From an uncultured Nitrosomonadales bacterium (GTDB lineage: Bacteria > Pseudomonadota > Gammaproteobacteria > Burkholderiales > Methylophilaceae): a stretch of DNA of 6,860 nt. The DNA lies in NCBI GenBank assembly GCA_946481065.1, contig CAMLMA010000093.1, positions 1-6,860 on the forward strand, in the 5' to 3' direction. Below, one piece after another: positions 2,072 to 6,858 of the stretch. A program made the position numbers and the translations under genes. Numbering within the stretch: the first letter of the stretch is position 1; each line of letters starts with the position of its first letter. Under the pieces are notes generated by a model. It searched no databases. It was not told the origin of the DNA and was given only the letters and a program-made list of their open reading frames with translations.

Positions 2072-2863
2072 TCAGCGCAGCCAGATTTCGCATTTGCTGA
2101 TGAGTTCGGCCTGGTTCGCGGCGTTGAGCGTCTCGCGCGCGCTGCGTAGCTGGTTCTCGATAGTACGTACCGACTTGCCGAGCTGGTCGGCGATTTGCTT
2201 GTAGCTCAATCCCTTGGCGGCCAGTTCGATCGCCATCAATTCCGAACGCGTCGGCCGCTTGATGATCTGCGATCGCTTCGGGTCATGCCAGCGCTTGCTG
2301 ATACCGATCAATGGGCCTAGGAAGGTCTCGGCGAAACTCTCCATGAAGGCGATCTCGCCGCTGGTCCAGACATGCGGCTCGTGGGTGAAATCCACGCAGG
2401 TCAACCCGACTGGTTGCCGATCCCAGGTTAGCCGCTGGAACAGGATGGACTTGCTCTGGATCGATTCGAACTTCTTGCGTGAATCGCCGAGCATGGGGTT
2501 GCTGGTGACGTTGTCGCAGACCACTGGCGCACGCTGGCGCCAGGTCCGCTGGAAGACGCTGACCTGGTTGGAGAAGACTACGCCGGTGTAGTCGGGCGGG
2601 TCGAAGGTCTTGTTGTAATAGATCGAAGCCGGGTTGTAGGTCGCGTCCTGCGGCGTGAGGAACCCGATATCGGCCCGGCAGGCCGCGAGTTTCTGTACGA
2701 TGAACTCGAGCGCGATCTCCATCATCTCATCCGGGTCCTCGATGGCAAGGATGAGATGTGCCGCGCAGTTCAGGGTGTCCTGCGGGTACAGGCCGCGATT
2801 GGCGTCGAGAAAGTGCTTCTTCAGCGCCTTCTTGGTCGGTGGCTCCATTTGATAATTCAGCAT
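2072..2863 (-). CDS. GAF-domain LuxR-type transcriptional regulator
   Basis: A 263-residue one-component regulator. An N-terminal region of about residues 32-186 has the length and pattern of a GAF-type ligand domain. It contains three cysteines at about 33, 62 and 116 and a fourth near 156. The C-terminal LuxR/GerE helix-turn-helix (about 203-258) is clear: LAAKGLSYKQIADQLGKSVRTIENQ, split here as LAAKGLSYKQIADQLGKS followed by VRTIENQLR. There is no receiver domain or conserved aspartate, so it probably senses a small molecule or redox state directly. The start is uncertain. The ATG at 2863 has only a weak AGAG upstream. A GTG at 2899 would add 12 residues, and the ATG at 2847 would remove 5. 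The gene is divergent from the exported cupin operon and is the obvious candidate to control it. The ligand is unknown. Confidence 0.85.
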   Translation of the reverse strand: MLNYQMEPPTKKALKKHFLDANRGLYPQDTLNCAAHLILAIEDPDEMMEIALEFIVQKLAACRADIGFLTPQDATYNPASIYYNKTFDPPDYTGVVFSNQVSVFQRTWRQRAPVVCDNVTSNPMLGDSRKKFESIQSKSILFQRLTWDRQPVGLTCVDFTHEPHVWTSGEIAFMESFAETFLGPLIGISKRWHDPKRSQIIKRPTRSELMAIELAAKGLSYKQIADQLGKSVRTIENQLRSARETLNAANQAELISKCEIWLR

Positions 2864-2998
2864 GATCGGTGACTCTACTTGTCCGGCGGTGTCACGCACG
2901 TCCCCGGCGTGATTCCATTAAAACTATCTTACTCCCAAATTGCATAGCATGTCGCATGCCTGCACAAGGACTGAAAATGCCTGAAATATAGGGGTATT

Positions 2999-3026
2999 TT
3001 GTCAAGTTTTTACAGTTGTGTAACAA
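2999..3026 (+). promoter_or_regulatory. Candidate sigma-70 promoter for the cupin operon
   Basis: TTGTCA (2999-3004) matches the -35 consensus at five of six positions. The best -10 at a 16-bp spacing is TAACAA (3021-3026), only a partial match. Transcription would then begin at about 3032-3034. A weak -10 would fit a promoter that needs an activator, such as the divergent LuxR protein. This is an inference from base matches only. Confidence 0.35.
3007..3026. promoter_or_regulatory. Dyad overlapping the candidate promoter (possible operator)
   Basis: TTACA (3010-3014) and TGTAA (3019-3023) are exact reverse complements around GTTG. After one mismatch (3009/3024) the symmetry extends with TT (3007-3008) and AA (3025-3026). 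It covers the spacer and candidate -10 of the cupin operon promoter, a position where a bound protein would affect initiation. Confidence 0.4.
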
Positions 3027-3031
3027 ATAAG

Positions 3032-3097
3032 ATGTCTCTCAATGAAGGAACCGACTTTCAGATTTCACTTTTAATTTCGGACCAAGGAGAGAGACAT
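3032..3097 (+). promoter_or_regulatory. Leader hairpin that can mask the cupin ribosome binding site and start codon
   Basis: ATGTCTCTC (3032-3040) is the exact reverse complement of GAGAGACAT (3089-3097), which contains part of the Shine-Dalgarno sequence (AAGGAGAG, 3084-3091) and the A and T of the cupin ATG (3096-3098). The fold continues inward with GG (3047-3048) against CC (3082-3083) and CCGA (3051-3054) against TCGG (3077-3080). The AAGGA core lies in an internal loop. In RNA this would reduce translation initiation unless melted or remodelled. The pairing is read directly from the sequence; the regulatory role is inferred. Confidence 0.5.
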
Positions 3098-3545
3098 GAA
3101 GAAGACTTATTGGGCAGTTGCAGTGGTAACCACGATCGGAATGTTCTATGGCGCGGCACTGATGGCGCACGGCGCGGCTGATGCACCGGACAAGCGCGTC
3201 AAGATGCAGTATTTCAAGAACGCGCAGAAGATGAAGATCCGCTCCATGAATGTCGAAGGTACCAACGCCTTCCTGCAGGACATCGTCGCATCCAACGACC
3301 CGAAGGCGCCGATCGCCTGCGGCCTGTTCCGCATGGAGAAGGGCAATTCGCTGACCTACACTTATGGATACGATGAAGCCAAGATCATCGTCGATGGCGA
3401 GATGTACGTGAATGACGGCGCGACCAAGGTCAAGGCGACCAAGGGTGATGTCCTGTTTTTCCCCAAGGGCGCGACGATCACCTTCTCATCCGATAGTTAT
3501 GGCGTAGGATTCATCTGCGGCCAGCGCGCATTCGACGGCGCATGA
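3096..3545 (+). CDS. Exported small cupin protein, EutQ-like
   Basis: A 149-residue protein with a Sec-type signal peptide (KK at the N-terminus, hydrophobic stretch about 5-24, probable cleavage after AHG or AHGAA at about 26-28), so the mature protein should be periplasmic. The remainder is one cupin barrel. Its closest resemblance is to the C-terminal domain of the ethanolamine-utilisation protein EutQ: YDEAKIIVDGEMYV (92-105) and KGDVLFFPKGATITF (116-130) follow the EutQ pattern YDEIDMVLEGEL...AGDVMFIPKGSSIEF, recalled from E. coli. The usual cupin metal-binding histidines are absent, as in EutQ. Two cysteines, C75 (IACGLF) and C141 (FICGQ), could form a disulfide. AAGGAGAG stands about 5 nt before the ATG. 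This is the first gene of a three-gene exported operon. Its ligand or enzymatic activity is unknown. Confidence 0.85.
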   Translation: MKKTYWAVAVVTTIGMFYGAALMAHGAADAPDKRVKMQYFKNAQKMKIRSMNVEGTNAFLQDIVASNDPKAPIACGLFRMEKGNSLTYTYGYDEAKIIVDGEMYVNDGATKVKATKGDVLFFPKGATITFSSDSYGVGFICGQRAFDGA

Positions 3546-3562
3546 TGCCAAGCTGGCATCAT
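3542..3562 (+). other. Perfect 9-bp hairpin overlapping the cupin stop codon
   Basis: ATGATGCCA (3542-3550) and TGGCATCAT (3554-3562) are exact reverse complements separated by AGC. The TGA stop (3543-3545) is inside the left arm. No T-run follows, so it is not a standard intrinsic terminator. It is better read as an intercistronic RNA stabiliser or processing signal that could raise cupin expression over the downstream genes. The function is inferred. Confidence 0.6.
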
Positions 3563-3591
3563 TCACGAGAACAGAATCGAGGAGAGCGGAA

Positions 3592-5115
3592 ATGAAAAAA
3601 CTTTCATTGATCCATCTATTTCCGTTGTGTATTTCCATGGCCTTGCCTGGCGTCGGCCACGCTGAACGCAATATCGACCTGACCGACCTGACGCAAGGTG
3701 ACCCGTTCTTTTACACCAGCGACCAGGACGTCAAGGAAACCGACGGCCAGAAGGCGCTGGTCGGCACAGGCCGCCCCAACAGAACGCATTCGCAGATCCC
3801 GCATCTGCCGTTCTATTTCGGCTACATGAATACCAACTACACCTATCGCTTCGTCACGGTGGCGGAACAGGTACTGACCATGATCGGCGAGGGCAAGCAC
3901 GGCTTGTGGCGCGTGCAGGAGAATGGCACCGTGCGGGAGTATCTGAGGCAAGGGGCCAAGGGTCTGTCACCGGGCGCGGATCTTGAAGACCCTGCCAACC
4001 TGGAGATCATCCGGCAGAGCTACAGTTCGTATATCCCGGAGGCAGGCTGGGCCGGCTACAAGTATCCGGACGAGCAACTGTCCAAGGCTGGCGAACTCAA
4101 CTATATCGACCTGCCGATCGGCCACGCCAAATACGGCAATAAGTATGTCGCGCATCAGCCGATCGATCTGCCTAATTTCTACTGCACGATGTCCGAGAAC
4201 GATTACCCCTACGCCCAGCAGGTGATGAATTTCGCCTTCCAGCAACCCGGGGCGAACAAGATCGGTCCGCTGGGCAAGCGTGCCGGCCTCGATATCAAGG
4301 AGAACTACACCCAGGTGATCCGCATCAACCACCTGCCGGACGCACGCTCCTGGGTGAATGTCGGCGAGCCGGGCAAGGACGCGCTGCATGTGAAGTGGGA
4401 AGCAGTCGACACGAGCAAGACTGAGGTCGAGTATTACCTCGTCGAGCGGCCGTTCTTCAACAAGCCTTATATCTTTGTCGCCGCAGTCTACGACAACCAG
4501 GATAACCGCGATTTCCAGTATGTGCGGCCGGCGGGGTCTTACTTCGATTCGATCCGTGACAAGCAGGCAGAACTCAAGACCACGGTCACGCCTCAGCCAC
4601 GCTTCCACCTCAGGAATGGCGACCTCGCCCCGGCGGTCGGGCTGCCGATCTACGGCGTCCATCACCCTAACCGGGCCGCTTATGGCGGCGGCGGTGCCTG
4701 TCCGTTCAAGGGTGGAGATTGGGGTCGCTATCCCAAGACTACCGGCGGCTCGGGCTGGCCCACGCAATATGAGGAAGTCACGCCGCTTTGTGATGCCGTG
4801 CTGGTCGATATCAAGTTCTACGCCAATCTCGATGGTCGCGACTGGAACGATACGACCAAGTATCTCGGCAATGCCGGCGTCGGTAGCAAACAGGTCGAAT
4901 ACAAGATGCAGGGCGGCGAGTACGGGGTCTTCACCGACCCCTACAACGTCGATCGGCATGTCAAGAACGCCGAAAGCCAGGTCGTCCCGGACCGGCTGAC
5001 GCTGACCTACCCCAGTGTCGCTCCGACCGTCGCCTACACGCCCGTGGAGAGGATCCCCATGGGCCCGGGCATGGTTCCCACCAAAGGCTCTACTTGCCGT
5101 CCCGTGCCGGAATGA
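3592..5115 (+). CDS. Large exported protein of unknown function
   Basis: I do not recognise a family. The 507-residue product begins with a clear signal peptide (KK, hydrophobic 4-21, cleavage likely after GHA at residue 24). C13 is not in a lipobox, so it should be a soluble periplasmic or secreted protein of about 483 residues. The mature part is rich in tyrosine and other aromatics (for example FYFGYMNTNYTYRF early on), has no membrane helix and no CXXCH haem motif, and has four cysteines, C198, C370, C400 and C502, enough for two disulfides. A glycine-rich stretch YGGGGACPFKGG surrounds C370. The C-terminus is proline-rich. The start is supported by GAGGAGAG (3578-3585) about 6 nt upstream. 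It lies 46 nt after the cupin and 47 nt before the porin gene, so all three are probably cotranscribed. A role in binding or processing a substrate passed through the porin is only a guess. Confidence 0.85.
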   Translation: MKKLSLIHLFPLCISMALPGVGHAERNIDLTDLTQGDPFFYTSDQDVKETDGQKALVGTGRPNRTHSQIPHLPFYFGYMNTNYTYRFVTVAEQVLTMIGEGKHGLWRVQENGTVREYLRQGAKGLSPGADLEDPANLEIIRQSYSSYIPEAGWAGYKYPDEQLSKAGELNYIDLPIGHAKYGNKYVAHQPIDLPNFYCTMSENDYPYAQQVMNFAFQQPGANKIGPLGKRAGLDIKENYTQVIRINHLPDARSWVNVGEPGKDALHVKWEAVDTSKTEVEYYLVERPFFNKPYIFVAAVYDNQDNRDFQYVRPAGSYFDSIRDKQAELKTTVTPQPRFHLRNGDLAPAVGLPIYGVHHPNRAAYGGGGACPFKGGDWGRYPKTTGGSGWPTQYEEVTPLCDAVLVDIKFYANLDGRDWNDTTKYLGNAGVGSKQVEYKMQGGEYGVFTDPYNVDRHVKNAESQVVPDRLTLTYPSVAPTVAYTPVERIPMGPGMVPTKGSTCRPVPE

Positions 5116-5162
5116 CGGGCCGAGCCAACTACCCTAACTAAAGATCAATGAGGAGAAATACC

Positions 5163-6071
5163 ATGTATTCACTACGCGTGAAGGCCCTCGGCTTGCTGAT
5201 ACTCGCGTTGTTCACTGCGAATAACGCGCTGGCAGCCGGCGGCAGCAAACCGTCCGATAGCGACAATCAGCAAGGCCCGGCCGAGGTCGGGCCGGCCAAG
5301 GCAGCCAAGGAATCCACGGCTTTCGATGACTTCCTCGATGGCGAGACGCTCTTCGGCGGCAAGTTCAGCACCTGGCTTGAACTAGCCTCGGATTATGTGT
5401 TCCGCGGCGAATCAGAGACCAATGACGGCAAGATCCCGTCGATCAAGGCGGCGATCACCTGGTCGCATCCAAGCGGCGTCTATCTGGGCTACTACGGCGC
5501 CAACAACCTGTTCCCGGGCAACGACCCGGCTGGCAACAACCCGAACATCAACGCGTTGTGGGGGCCTTATGCTGGTTATGCCAAGAAGGATATCGCCGGC
5601 ACCGGCCTCAACTACAACGGCATGTTCTTCCAGTATGTGTATCCGGGCGACAACGATTCGAACTACCTCGAGATGTTCAACTATGTCGACAAGCAGTTCG
5701 GCGCGCTCAACCTCAAGTTCGAGTATTCGCCGACCATCACCGACTGGTTCGGCGTGAAGGGTTTGCAGTCGCATAACATCGCCATCCACCCGAGCATCGC
5801 CCTGCCGCATAAATTCACCCTGTCTGGCGGGATCGGCTATCAGTTCTTCAACAATAGCGGCCCACGCCTGGACGCCGACGGTAATGGCAAGGAAGAGCTG
5901 AACTGGGTGCATTGGAACATCGGCATCAGCCGCAAGGTGCTGGGTTACAACGTCGACTTGCGTTACCACGACACCAATATCGATGTCGGCCATCACGATT
6001 TCTACGGCTTCAAGTCCAACCACCAGATCGTCGACCAGCGTTATGTGTTCGCCATCTCCAAGAGTTTTTGA
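5163..6071 (+). CDS. TorF-family putative outer-membrane porin
   Basis: A 302-residue outer-membrane beta-barrel protein. The signal peptide (residues 1 to about 24, ending NALA) is followed by a low-complexity Gly/Ser/Pro/Ala/Lys linker (about 26-52) and then alternating aromatic strands. WLELASDYVFRGESET (71-86) is the hallmark entry strand of the TorF/Gcw_chp family (TIGR02001), and the protein ends in the typical beta-barrel C-terminal phenylalanine (YVFAISKSF). The ATG at 5163 is preferred to one at 5148, because the Shine-Dalgarno sequence AGGAGA (5151-5156) lies between them at the right distance for 5163. It is the last gene of the exported cassette and is followed by an intrinsic terminator. 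TorF-type proteins are presumed porins and their substrates are generally unproven. A DADGNGKEE segment near residue 240 resembles part of a calcium loop, but incompletely. Confidence 0.85.
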   Translation: MYSLRVKALGLLILALFTANNALAAGGSKPSDSDNQQGPAEVGPAKAAKESTAFDDFLDGETLFGGKFSTWLELASDYVFRGESETNDGKIPSIKAAITWSHPSGVYLGYYGANNLFPGNDPAGNNPNINALWGPYAGYAKKDIAGTGLNYNGMFFQYVYPGDNDSNYLEMFNYVDKQFGALNLKFEYSPTITDWFGVKGLQSHNIAIHPSIALPHKFTLSGGIGYQFFNNSGPRLDADGNGKEELNWVHWNIGISRKVLGYNVDLRYHDTNIDVGHHDFYGFKSNHQIVDQRYVFAISKSF

Positions 6072-6107
6072 TTAGGCGTCTCCAAAAGTAGTATGGCCTA
6101 ACCCCTT

Positions 6108-6134
6108 GCCGCGCCCAGAAGGCGCGGCTTTTTT
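6108..6134 (+). terminator. Intrinsic terminator of the exported-protein operon
   Basis: GCCGCGCC (6108-6115) and GGCGCGGC (6121-6128) form a perfect 8-bp GC-rich stem with a CAGAA loop, followed at once by six T residues (6129-6134). This is a canonical rho-independent terminator 36 nt after the porin stop codon and marks the end of the operon. Confidence 0.93.
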
Positions 6135-6137
6135 ATT

Positions 6138-6366: not shown

Positions 6367-6858
6367 ATGATCACGCTCACGCTGAGCCTGGACTCGTTGG
6401 CGGTATATCTGGTCGTGGCCGATATACTGGTGTTGCTCTCCTATGTGCTGTATGTCCTGCACAAGAAGCGGAAACTGGAGCGCGCCATCGCCAAGGTTTC
6501 TGAATTCGTCACGGATTACTTCATGAATAGCGGCATCAGCGTGAAGGTGACCTCTTACCAGAAGCCGGGCGAGCATCACTTCGTCACCATGATCGAATCG
6601 CAGCCGCTGAAGCGTTTCCGCTATTCCAGCGTGATCGAGCGCAACCTCGTCGACCATATCGAGAGCGCCATCGGCGTGCAGATCGACAAGATCTACTGGC
6701 GATTCCCCCTGCATATGCAGAATGACCAGATGCTGGCCGAAGCCCCTGATAACGCGTCGGATGCCTATCTCGAGGAGAGCAAGGAGGCCATGCGCATCAG
6801 CGATAACTACAAAGTCTCCGAGGCCAGTTGGGATGATTTCAGCGAGCAGTCGAAGTAG
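6367..6858 (+). CDS. Membrane-anchored protein of unknown function
   Basis: I do not recognise a family. The 163-residue product has one hydrophobic helix at about residues 10-31 (AVYLVVADILVLLSYVLYVL), then a basic HKKRK patch (32-36), which by the positive-inside rule puts the rest in the cytoplasm. The soluble part has a mixed, strand-like central region (about 57-115) and an acidic C-terminus (EAPDNASDAYLEESKEAM and DDFSEQSK). The start is supported by GAGGTG a few nt upstream. The gene is complete, ending with TAG at 6856-6858, and is separated from the porin operon by a terminator, so it is probably an independent unit. Confidence 0.8.
   Translation: MITLTLSLDSLAVYLVVADILVLLSYVLYVLHKKRKLERAIAKVSEFVTDYFMNSGISVKVTSYQKPGEHHFVTMIESQPLKRFRYSSVIERNLVDHIESAIGVQIDKIYWRFPLHMQNDQMLAEAPDNASDAYLEESKEAMRISDNYKVSEASWDDFSEQSK

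Follow-up and report, generated by a model that had tools for sequence, protein, structure and literature searches.

The sequence analyzed here is a 6,860-nt stretch of contig CAMLMA010000093.1 (hereafter the window) from an uncultured member of the Methylophilaceae, in which the locus studied (2072..6137) encodes a GAF-LuxR-type regulator, a EutQ-like cupin, an exported orphan protein of 507 residues (p507) and a putative TorF porin. The locus is an instance of a real, apparently unnamed module that, from sequence comparison, seems to be accessory, separately regulated and moving between lineages. On the gene neighborhoods compared, its core is the cupin together with p507; two methylotroph families have TorF in addition. 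Most loci also encode, close by, a regulator of one of two unrelated types (GAF-LuxR or XRE-PAS), each with its own conserved candidate site 5' of the cupin gene. The best explanation, to which a probability of roughly 40% is given, is that the module works on a small one-carbon or methylated compound, with p507 acting as a periplasmic enzyme.

The set of loci was obtained from one scan of 84,980 species genomes (one genome each), giving 46 loci, and was extended to 51 by a plasmid copy and four stretches from genome searches. The scan used two peptide patterns that can miss members, as a further search found others, so that 46 is a lower bound. Two loci (L038 and L044) are contigs of one metagenome-assembled genome (MAG; SS_bin_92) with 95% identity in the p507 overlap, which may represent two strains or two copies, and the 51 loci therefore correspond to about 50 genomes. 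Homologues of p507 are thus scarce. A cupin homologue was located directly upstream of p507 on the same strand in 40/51 loci, which bears out the linkage across genera that the initial annotation proposed to test; cassette and dedicated regulator remain linked in different genera and classes, and the genes are not usually unlinked. The 11 loci without an upstream cupin were nine of other branches (L034, L035, L037, L039, L041, L042, L043, L073 and L074), L044, which reaches a contig end, and L047, which carries a deletion scar. Two of these (L073 and L074, with uninformative neighbors) belong to the order of the L043 genome, in which a search with the L043 p507 gave 3 positives out of 341 genomes. 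In the Methylophilaceae, p507 was found in 7/187 genomes, six of which share TorF; the p507 gene of the seventh (G171) is truncated by the contig end and is flanked on its other side by the cupin and an XRE-PAS gene.

The proposal of a three-protein cassette including a putative porin was borne out for the Methylophilaceae and Methylophagaceae, which account for 15/51 loci; across the loci as a whole TorF is optional. TorF was present 3' of p507 in 15 of the 51 loci outside the window, six from the family of Methylotenera oryzisoli and nine from that of Methylophaga sp. OBS4, so that the "porin plus two" arrangement is the Methylophilaceae/Methylophagaceae form of a wider cupin-p507 core. A weak TorF-like gene was also found 3' of p507 in L045. 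Membership of the TorF porin family was confirmed by TIGR02001 (138.1 bits against a cut-off of 47.15, covering profile positions 26–244 of 244) and PF09694 (78.4 against 24), with no sequence relative in the PDB even at E≤10. The TorF subfamily of the window (58–78% identical) occurred in 7/187 Methylophilaceae genomes, namely six p507 carriers and one genome with a deletion scar (G219). This corresponds to 6/7 p507 genomes versus 1/180 others (Fisher 9e-10, a value that ignores kinship and incomplete genomes), and the copies in eight other Methylophilaceae genomes with a TorF match at E≤1e-10 were only 26–33% identical. Nine gammaproteobacterial loci have, in place of TorF, a gene for a c-type cytochrome 20–265 bp 3' of p507, and in L044 such a gene lies 7.2 kb downstream. 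The L040 cytochrome (10449-12131, about 560 amino acids (aa)) contains the motifs CRTCH and CGSCH, and one cytochrome out of ten was scanned, giving a weak MauG match (42 bits) and no Pfam match.

The orphan status of p507 was upheld, with no sequence match in Pfam, NCBIfam, PHROG or the PDB, although 318 proteins were related to it at E≤0.001. An AlphaFold2 model was confident (predicted local distance difference test (pLDDT) 89.5), an earlier model from 27 close sequences being poor (pLDDT 55.7) and not used. No PDB fold matched the model at Foldseek E≤0.001, and Foldseek and VIA gave no convincing match, which does not prove a new fold. In an alignment of 132 sequences sharing 42–77% identity with the p507 of the window, 53 columns were invariant, including R86, K102, H103, R107, R115, D173, C198, D250, E280, E285, R312, H358, C370, D376, E395, C400, D401, D406 and K408. 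This pattern of conservation suggests an enzyme. Homologues in actinobacterial records likewise start with an export signal (by eye). One homologue, P0093, is named DUF1329 in UniRef; assignment of p507 to this family (PF07044) was rejected, since hhalign gave a probability of 0.3% against three DUF1329 proteins and 17 p507 members, P0093 among them, had no match at E≤1. The p507 family seems to be undescribed.

Within the window, the first gene, for a CysJ-like flavoprotein, is incomplete and is followed by a LysR regulator, a 133-aa small protein, the GAF-LuxR gene (minus strand), the cupin, p507 and torF genes (all plus strand), a terminator and a 163-aa protein. The features of the locus are as follows:

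2072..2899, minus strand: GAF-LuxR-type regulator; GerE over the Pfam cut-off, GAF just under it; likely start near 2863
2989..3004, plus strand: predicted operator TAGGGGTATTTTGTCA, 107 nt 5' of the cupin start; aligned in seven GAF-LuxR loci including the window
3028..3033, plus strand: possible -10 element TAAGAT, 23 nt 3' of the operator
3096..3545, plus strand: exported EutQ-like cupin, 149 aa; PF06249 and PF05899 over cut-off
3542..3562, plus strand: perfect 9-bp hairpin ATGATGCCA-AGC-TGGCATCAT spanning the cupin stop, with no T run
3592..5115, plus strand: p507, exported orphan protein, 507 aa, without a family match
5163..6071, plus strand: TorF/Gcw_chp outer-membrane barrel; TIGR02001 over cut-off; alternative start at 5148
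6108..6137, plus strand: intrinsic terminator, a stem of 8 G-C pairs followed by TTTTTT

The ATG at 5163 is a better torF start than 5148, being preceded by AGGAGA as a ribosome-binding site, and with this start the intergenic gaps are 46 nt (3546-3591) and 47 nt (5116-5162), as described in the initial annotation. Its attribution of signal peptides was also supported, all three plus-strand proteins having hydrophobic N-termini and plausible cleavage sites (by eye), as was that of a strong terminator (6108-6128) after torF, which has the longest stem and the sole all-G-C stem among the five terminator-like sites of the window; as a class, such sites are at chance level (5 found, 5.0 expected). 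The hairpin over the cupin stop folds at -16.2 kcal/mol with its flanks and may set the ratio of cupin to p507; its sequence was not kept in the 13 relatives folded, with different hairpins or none in other loci. The 163-aa protein 3' of the terminator (6367-6858) matches nothing in Pfam or PHROG; its N-terminal part is hydrophobic (by eye).

The LuxR-type helix-turn-helix of the regulator was confirmed (GerE 27.6 versus 23.5), but the GAF domain scored under the cut-off (GAF_2 25.0 versus 28.6; GAF 21.1 versus 22.4) and is therefore probable only. As most homologues align from about residue 11–15, translation probably begins at the ATG near 2863. Homologues of the GAF-LuxR protein (E≤1e-10) were found in 3/187 Methylophilaceae genomes, all three with p507. 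Across the loci, a GAF-LuxR gene accompanied the module in 17/51 and an XRE-PAS gene (the protein of L006 having HTH_3 and PAS_4 domains) in 15/51, the two together in none; "nearby" was defined loosely, including a GAF-LuxR gene 8 kb upstream in L025 and one cut by the contig end in L032. Neither regulator was nearby in L027-L031, in L040 or in the loci without a cupin.

Candidate operator patterns were written after inspecting seven GAF and ten XRE loci, and were searched for within the fetched loci. The first GAF pattern was present 5' of the cupin with ≤2 mismatches in 9/13 further, held-out GAF-clade loci (missing L005, L017, L023 and L032), and at 2 mismatches it occurred elsewhere once each in L002, L003, L013 and L074. 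A relaxed consensus written after this test, TAGGGGwTTnyTGTCA, was found with ≤1 mismatch in 16/20 GAF-clade loci, 67–136 nt 5' of the cupin start, with 3–4 mismatches in the remaining four (the same loci missed by the first pattern) and with ≥4 mismatches in 21/21 non-GAF loci; the 20 GAF-clade loci include L036 and L046, which end before the expected place of the regulator and were assigned by genus. The GAF-LuxR gene lies downstream, in convergent orientation, in Paracoccus, a Paracoccaceae MAG, Microvirga and L045, and yet the consensus is 5' of the cupin there too, just as in the loci with a divergent regulator. Among the 16 loci with ≤1 mismatch, 15 (all but L025) have a TAnnnT motif 21–23 nt 3' of the site, a count made without a shuffle control. 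In the XRE loci the site GTAATnnATTACTTGAC, which is palindromic and leads into a TTGACA-like -35, was located 84–158 nt 5' of the cupin with ≤2 mismatches in 14/14 loci, including 4/4 held-out loci within 1 mismatch. It was not found 5' of the cupin within 3 mismatches in any GAF-clade locus; matches to the XRE pattern at ≤3 mismatches occur elsewhere in many loci. The presence of two unrelated regulators, each with its own site, is the best evidence for their control of the module, and it is predicted that GAF-LuxR and XRE-PAS act through these respective sites.

The designation of the first plus-strand gene as a EutQ-like cupin was supported by PF06249 EutQ (42.9 bits, cut-off 21) and PF05899 (27.9, cut-off 23.5), with 4axo, 3lwc and 2pyt as PDB relatives. 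A EutQ acetate kinase (NF012001) was rejected with 41.8 bits against the equivalog cut-off of 193. Metal-dependent cupins have conserved metal-ligand histidines in two cupin motifs; across 21 aligned cupins no histidine was present in the invariant or 90% columns, and assignment to the metal-dependent cupins was likewise rejected. Tandem cupin pairs precede p507 in L032 (316-1268) and L038 (5839-6697), where copy 1 is apparently without an export signal and copy 2 has one (by eye).

In the p507 tree (support values not read), the Grimontia and Enterovibrio copies were placed within the Methylophaga branch, and they share the XRE-PAS regulator of that branch but without TorF, which fits transfer of the module from a methylotroph to the Vibrionaceae. 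The GAF and XRE types are interleaved among the Methylophilaceae, so that control units seem to have been exchanged. The occurrence of p507 in 6/125 Paracoccus and 9/57 Methylophagaceae genomes is the distribution of an accessory set. In G219, a Methylophilaceae genome (L089, 7729-8559), the C-terminal part of XRE-PAS abuts the C-terminal part of TorF, as would be left by a single deletion within the module. A second scar, in Enterovibrio sp. ZSDZ42 (L047, about 8365-9489), joins the N-terminal part of XRE-PAS to the C-terminal part of p507. One contig (L039) is labeled as a Bifidobacterium breve MAG; its p507 groups with Thermoleophilia contigs and its GcvT-like gene shares 95% identity with the L041 copy, so that the label looks wrong.

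If the module acts on a one-carbon or methylated compound, a signal sensed through the GAF or PAS domain would act on one promoter, TorF would let a small polar compound cross the outer membrane, and p507 would be a periplasmic enzyme on a compound that yields or consumes formaldehyde. The cupin, without metal histidines, would be a small partner of p507, binding substrate or product or aiding p507 maturation. The c-type cytochrome as third gene in one gammaproteobacterial clade, with its weak MauG match, would fit a redox step. The hosts are in line with this, 15/51 loci being in genomes of the Methylophilaceae or Methylophagaceae, and several neighboring genes point to such compounds. In L034 (Algicola), genes for a class III formaldehyde dehydrogenase and an S-formylglutathione hydrolase lie about 70 nt upstream. 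Sarcosine-oxidase-like alpha and beta genes are present in L027, L031 and L044, together with a glutamate-synthase-domain protein in L027 (scanned) and a glutamine-synthetase-like protein in L027 and L031 (by reading, without a scan). A GcvT-like protein is encoded about 220 bp from p507 in 4/4 actinobacterial loci (L037, L039, L041 and L042), that of L039 resembling the C-terminal part of trimethylamine N-oxide (TMAO) demethylase (277 bits, under the cut-off of 1100). TorT-TorS-TorR-like sets adjoin p507 in two distant lineages (L024, 3685-8357; L043, 3676-8637), and accessory genes of a pyrroloquinoline quinone (PQQ) alcohol dehydrogenase lie upstream in L017 (P. sulfuroxidans).

A number of observations weigh against an enzyme for one-carbon or methylated compounds. 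The neighbor-gene evidence comes without a chance control; neighbors were uninformative in L018-L022, L035, L073 and L074, and likewise in Vibrio ostreicida, Grimontia and Enterovibrio, and the PQQ accessory genes of L017 were absent from Paracoccus MKU1 (two proteins scanned). To our knowledge, the Vibrionaceae carriers are not known as methylotrophs, and p507 is rare both in the methylotroph families (7/187 Methylophilaceae and 9/57 Methylophagaceae genomes), so that it is not part of core methylotrophy, and in Paracoccus (only 6/125 genomes). Catalytic residues and a cofactor of p507 are hypothetical. Methanethiol oxidase (SBP56) was not associated with p507 in the Methylophagaceae (2/9 versus 10/48), nor was glutamine synthetase of the III/gamma-glutamylmethylamide synthetase type in the Methylophilaceae (2/7 versus 63/180), and links to methanethiol or dimethyl sulfide and to methylamine through these enzymes were accordingly rejected. 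A dimethylformamidase domain was found in just 6/47 p507 genomes, a count without a background set. TMAO demethylase was borderline in Paracoccus, with 4/6 versus 31/119 genomes at E≤1e-200 (p = 0.051) and 4/6 versus 24/119 over the curated cut-off (p = 0.022), these values being one-sided, uncorrected for the several tests run and, as with the other Fisher values, ignoring kinship; over all p507 genomes it exceeded the cut-off in just 4/41. As the substrate co-occurrence tests failed or were borderline, nothing narrower is proposed than a small compound of the one-carbon or methylated kind.

The formaldehyde-handling neighbors in Algicola would also suit a module for protection rather than growth, in which formaldehyde or some other small aldehyde is captured or cleared in the periplasm by p507 and the cupin. 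Heterotrophs like Grimontia, seemingly recipients from methylotrophs, would benefit from such a function, and it would sit well with an accessory module deleted in two genomes, but it is considered unlikely: a dedicated outer-membrane pore would speed the entry of a toxic aldehyde, p507 matches no known aldehyde-enzyme family and formaldehyde dehydrogenase genes adjoin it in one lineage only. A comparably low probability is given to p507 being a binding or envelope protein that captures a ligand or metal, with TorF as its pore. The lack of a match to a known enzyme family or fold, the cupin without conserved metal histidines and the export signals of homologues in actinobacterial records, where no outer membrane is expected, would favor this function, whereas the 53 invariant columns, which include 3 Cys, 2 His and numerous charged residues, exceed the apparent needs of a scaffold at 42–77% identity, and a c-type cytochrome gene lies directly 3' in nine loci.

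The least probable of the alternatives is a module for TMAO or another tertiary amine oxide, on which p507 would act in the periplasm to release dimethylamine and formaldehyde. The TorT/TorS/TorR-like sets beside p507 are in its favor, as is TMAO demethylase being somewhat more common in p507-carrying Paracoccus, and TorF is TorR-regulated in Shewanella. However, the TorT-like proteins of L024 and L043 are closer to the solute-binding protein 4yhs (327 and 314 bits) than to TorT 3o1h (230 and 224 bits), and the few p507 genomes with TMAO demethylase over the cut-off (4/41) argue in the same direction. A further point for this alternative is that a TMAO demethylase activity has been reported in Escherichia coli whose source is not known (PMC4949985).

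A periplasmic enzyme on a one-carbon or methylated compound thus remains the preferred explanation. More tentatively, and with the odds somewhat against it, p507 would represent a new family and fold of such enzymes, paired with a metal-free cupin in a plug-in cassette that spreads between bacterial classes and swaps its whole control unit (GAF-LuxR with TAGGGGwTTnyTGTCA, or XRE-PAS with GTAATnnATTACTTGAC). Should p507 prove to be an enzyme, an extra step for one-carbon or methylated compounds would exist in some methylotrophs and marine heterotrophs, and we know of no pathway that includes it. Annotation currently shows this conserved set, which seems to have been passed between lineages, only as "hypothetical protein, cupin, TorF porin", and the two candidate operator sequences allow a direct test of control.

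In agreement with the initial annotation, no named system of this composition was found in the literature searched; regulated operons of a barrel and periplasmic proteins are known, and that literature describes neither the central protein nor this composition nor the two control units. The operon of the methanethiol oxidase MtoX (SBP56) is likewise found in methylotrophs and encodes a periplasmic protein together with a MauG-like partner, but p507 has no SBP56 match and mtoX is not tied to p507 in the Methylophagaceae. DUF1329 proteins, which pair with DUF1302 barrels, resemble p507 in being exported proteins (of about 460 residues) accompanied by a barrel, but no profile-profile similarity of p507 to three of them was detected. 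TorTSR-controlled tor operons share the TorT/TorS/TorR-like genes that adjoin p507 in L024 and L043; they differ in that no TMAO reductase gene was noticed in these two stretches (by eye, without a scan) and that the nearby regulator is of another type in 32/51 module loci. The cupin aligns with EutQ cupins (PF06249, NF012001) along about 100 residues, scoring above the Pfam cut-off, and 4axo and 2pyt are among its PDB relatives, but it is exported, has 149 residues compared with the 233 positions of the EutQ model and has no eut gene beside it in the window. Among the putative porins of the TorF/Gcw_chp family (TIGR02001, PF09694), the third gene of the window encodes a full-length member by curated score, and what sets its subfamily apart is that, across the 187 Methylophilaceae genomes, it accompanies p507 or a scar of the module.

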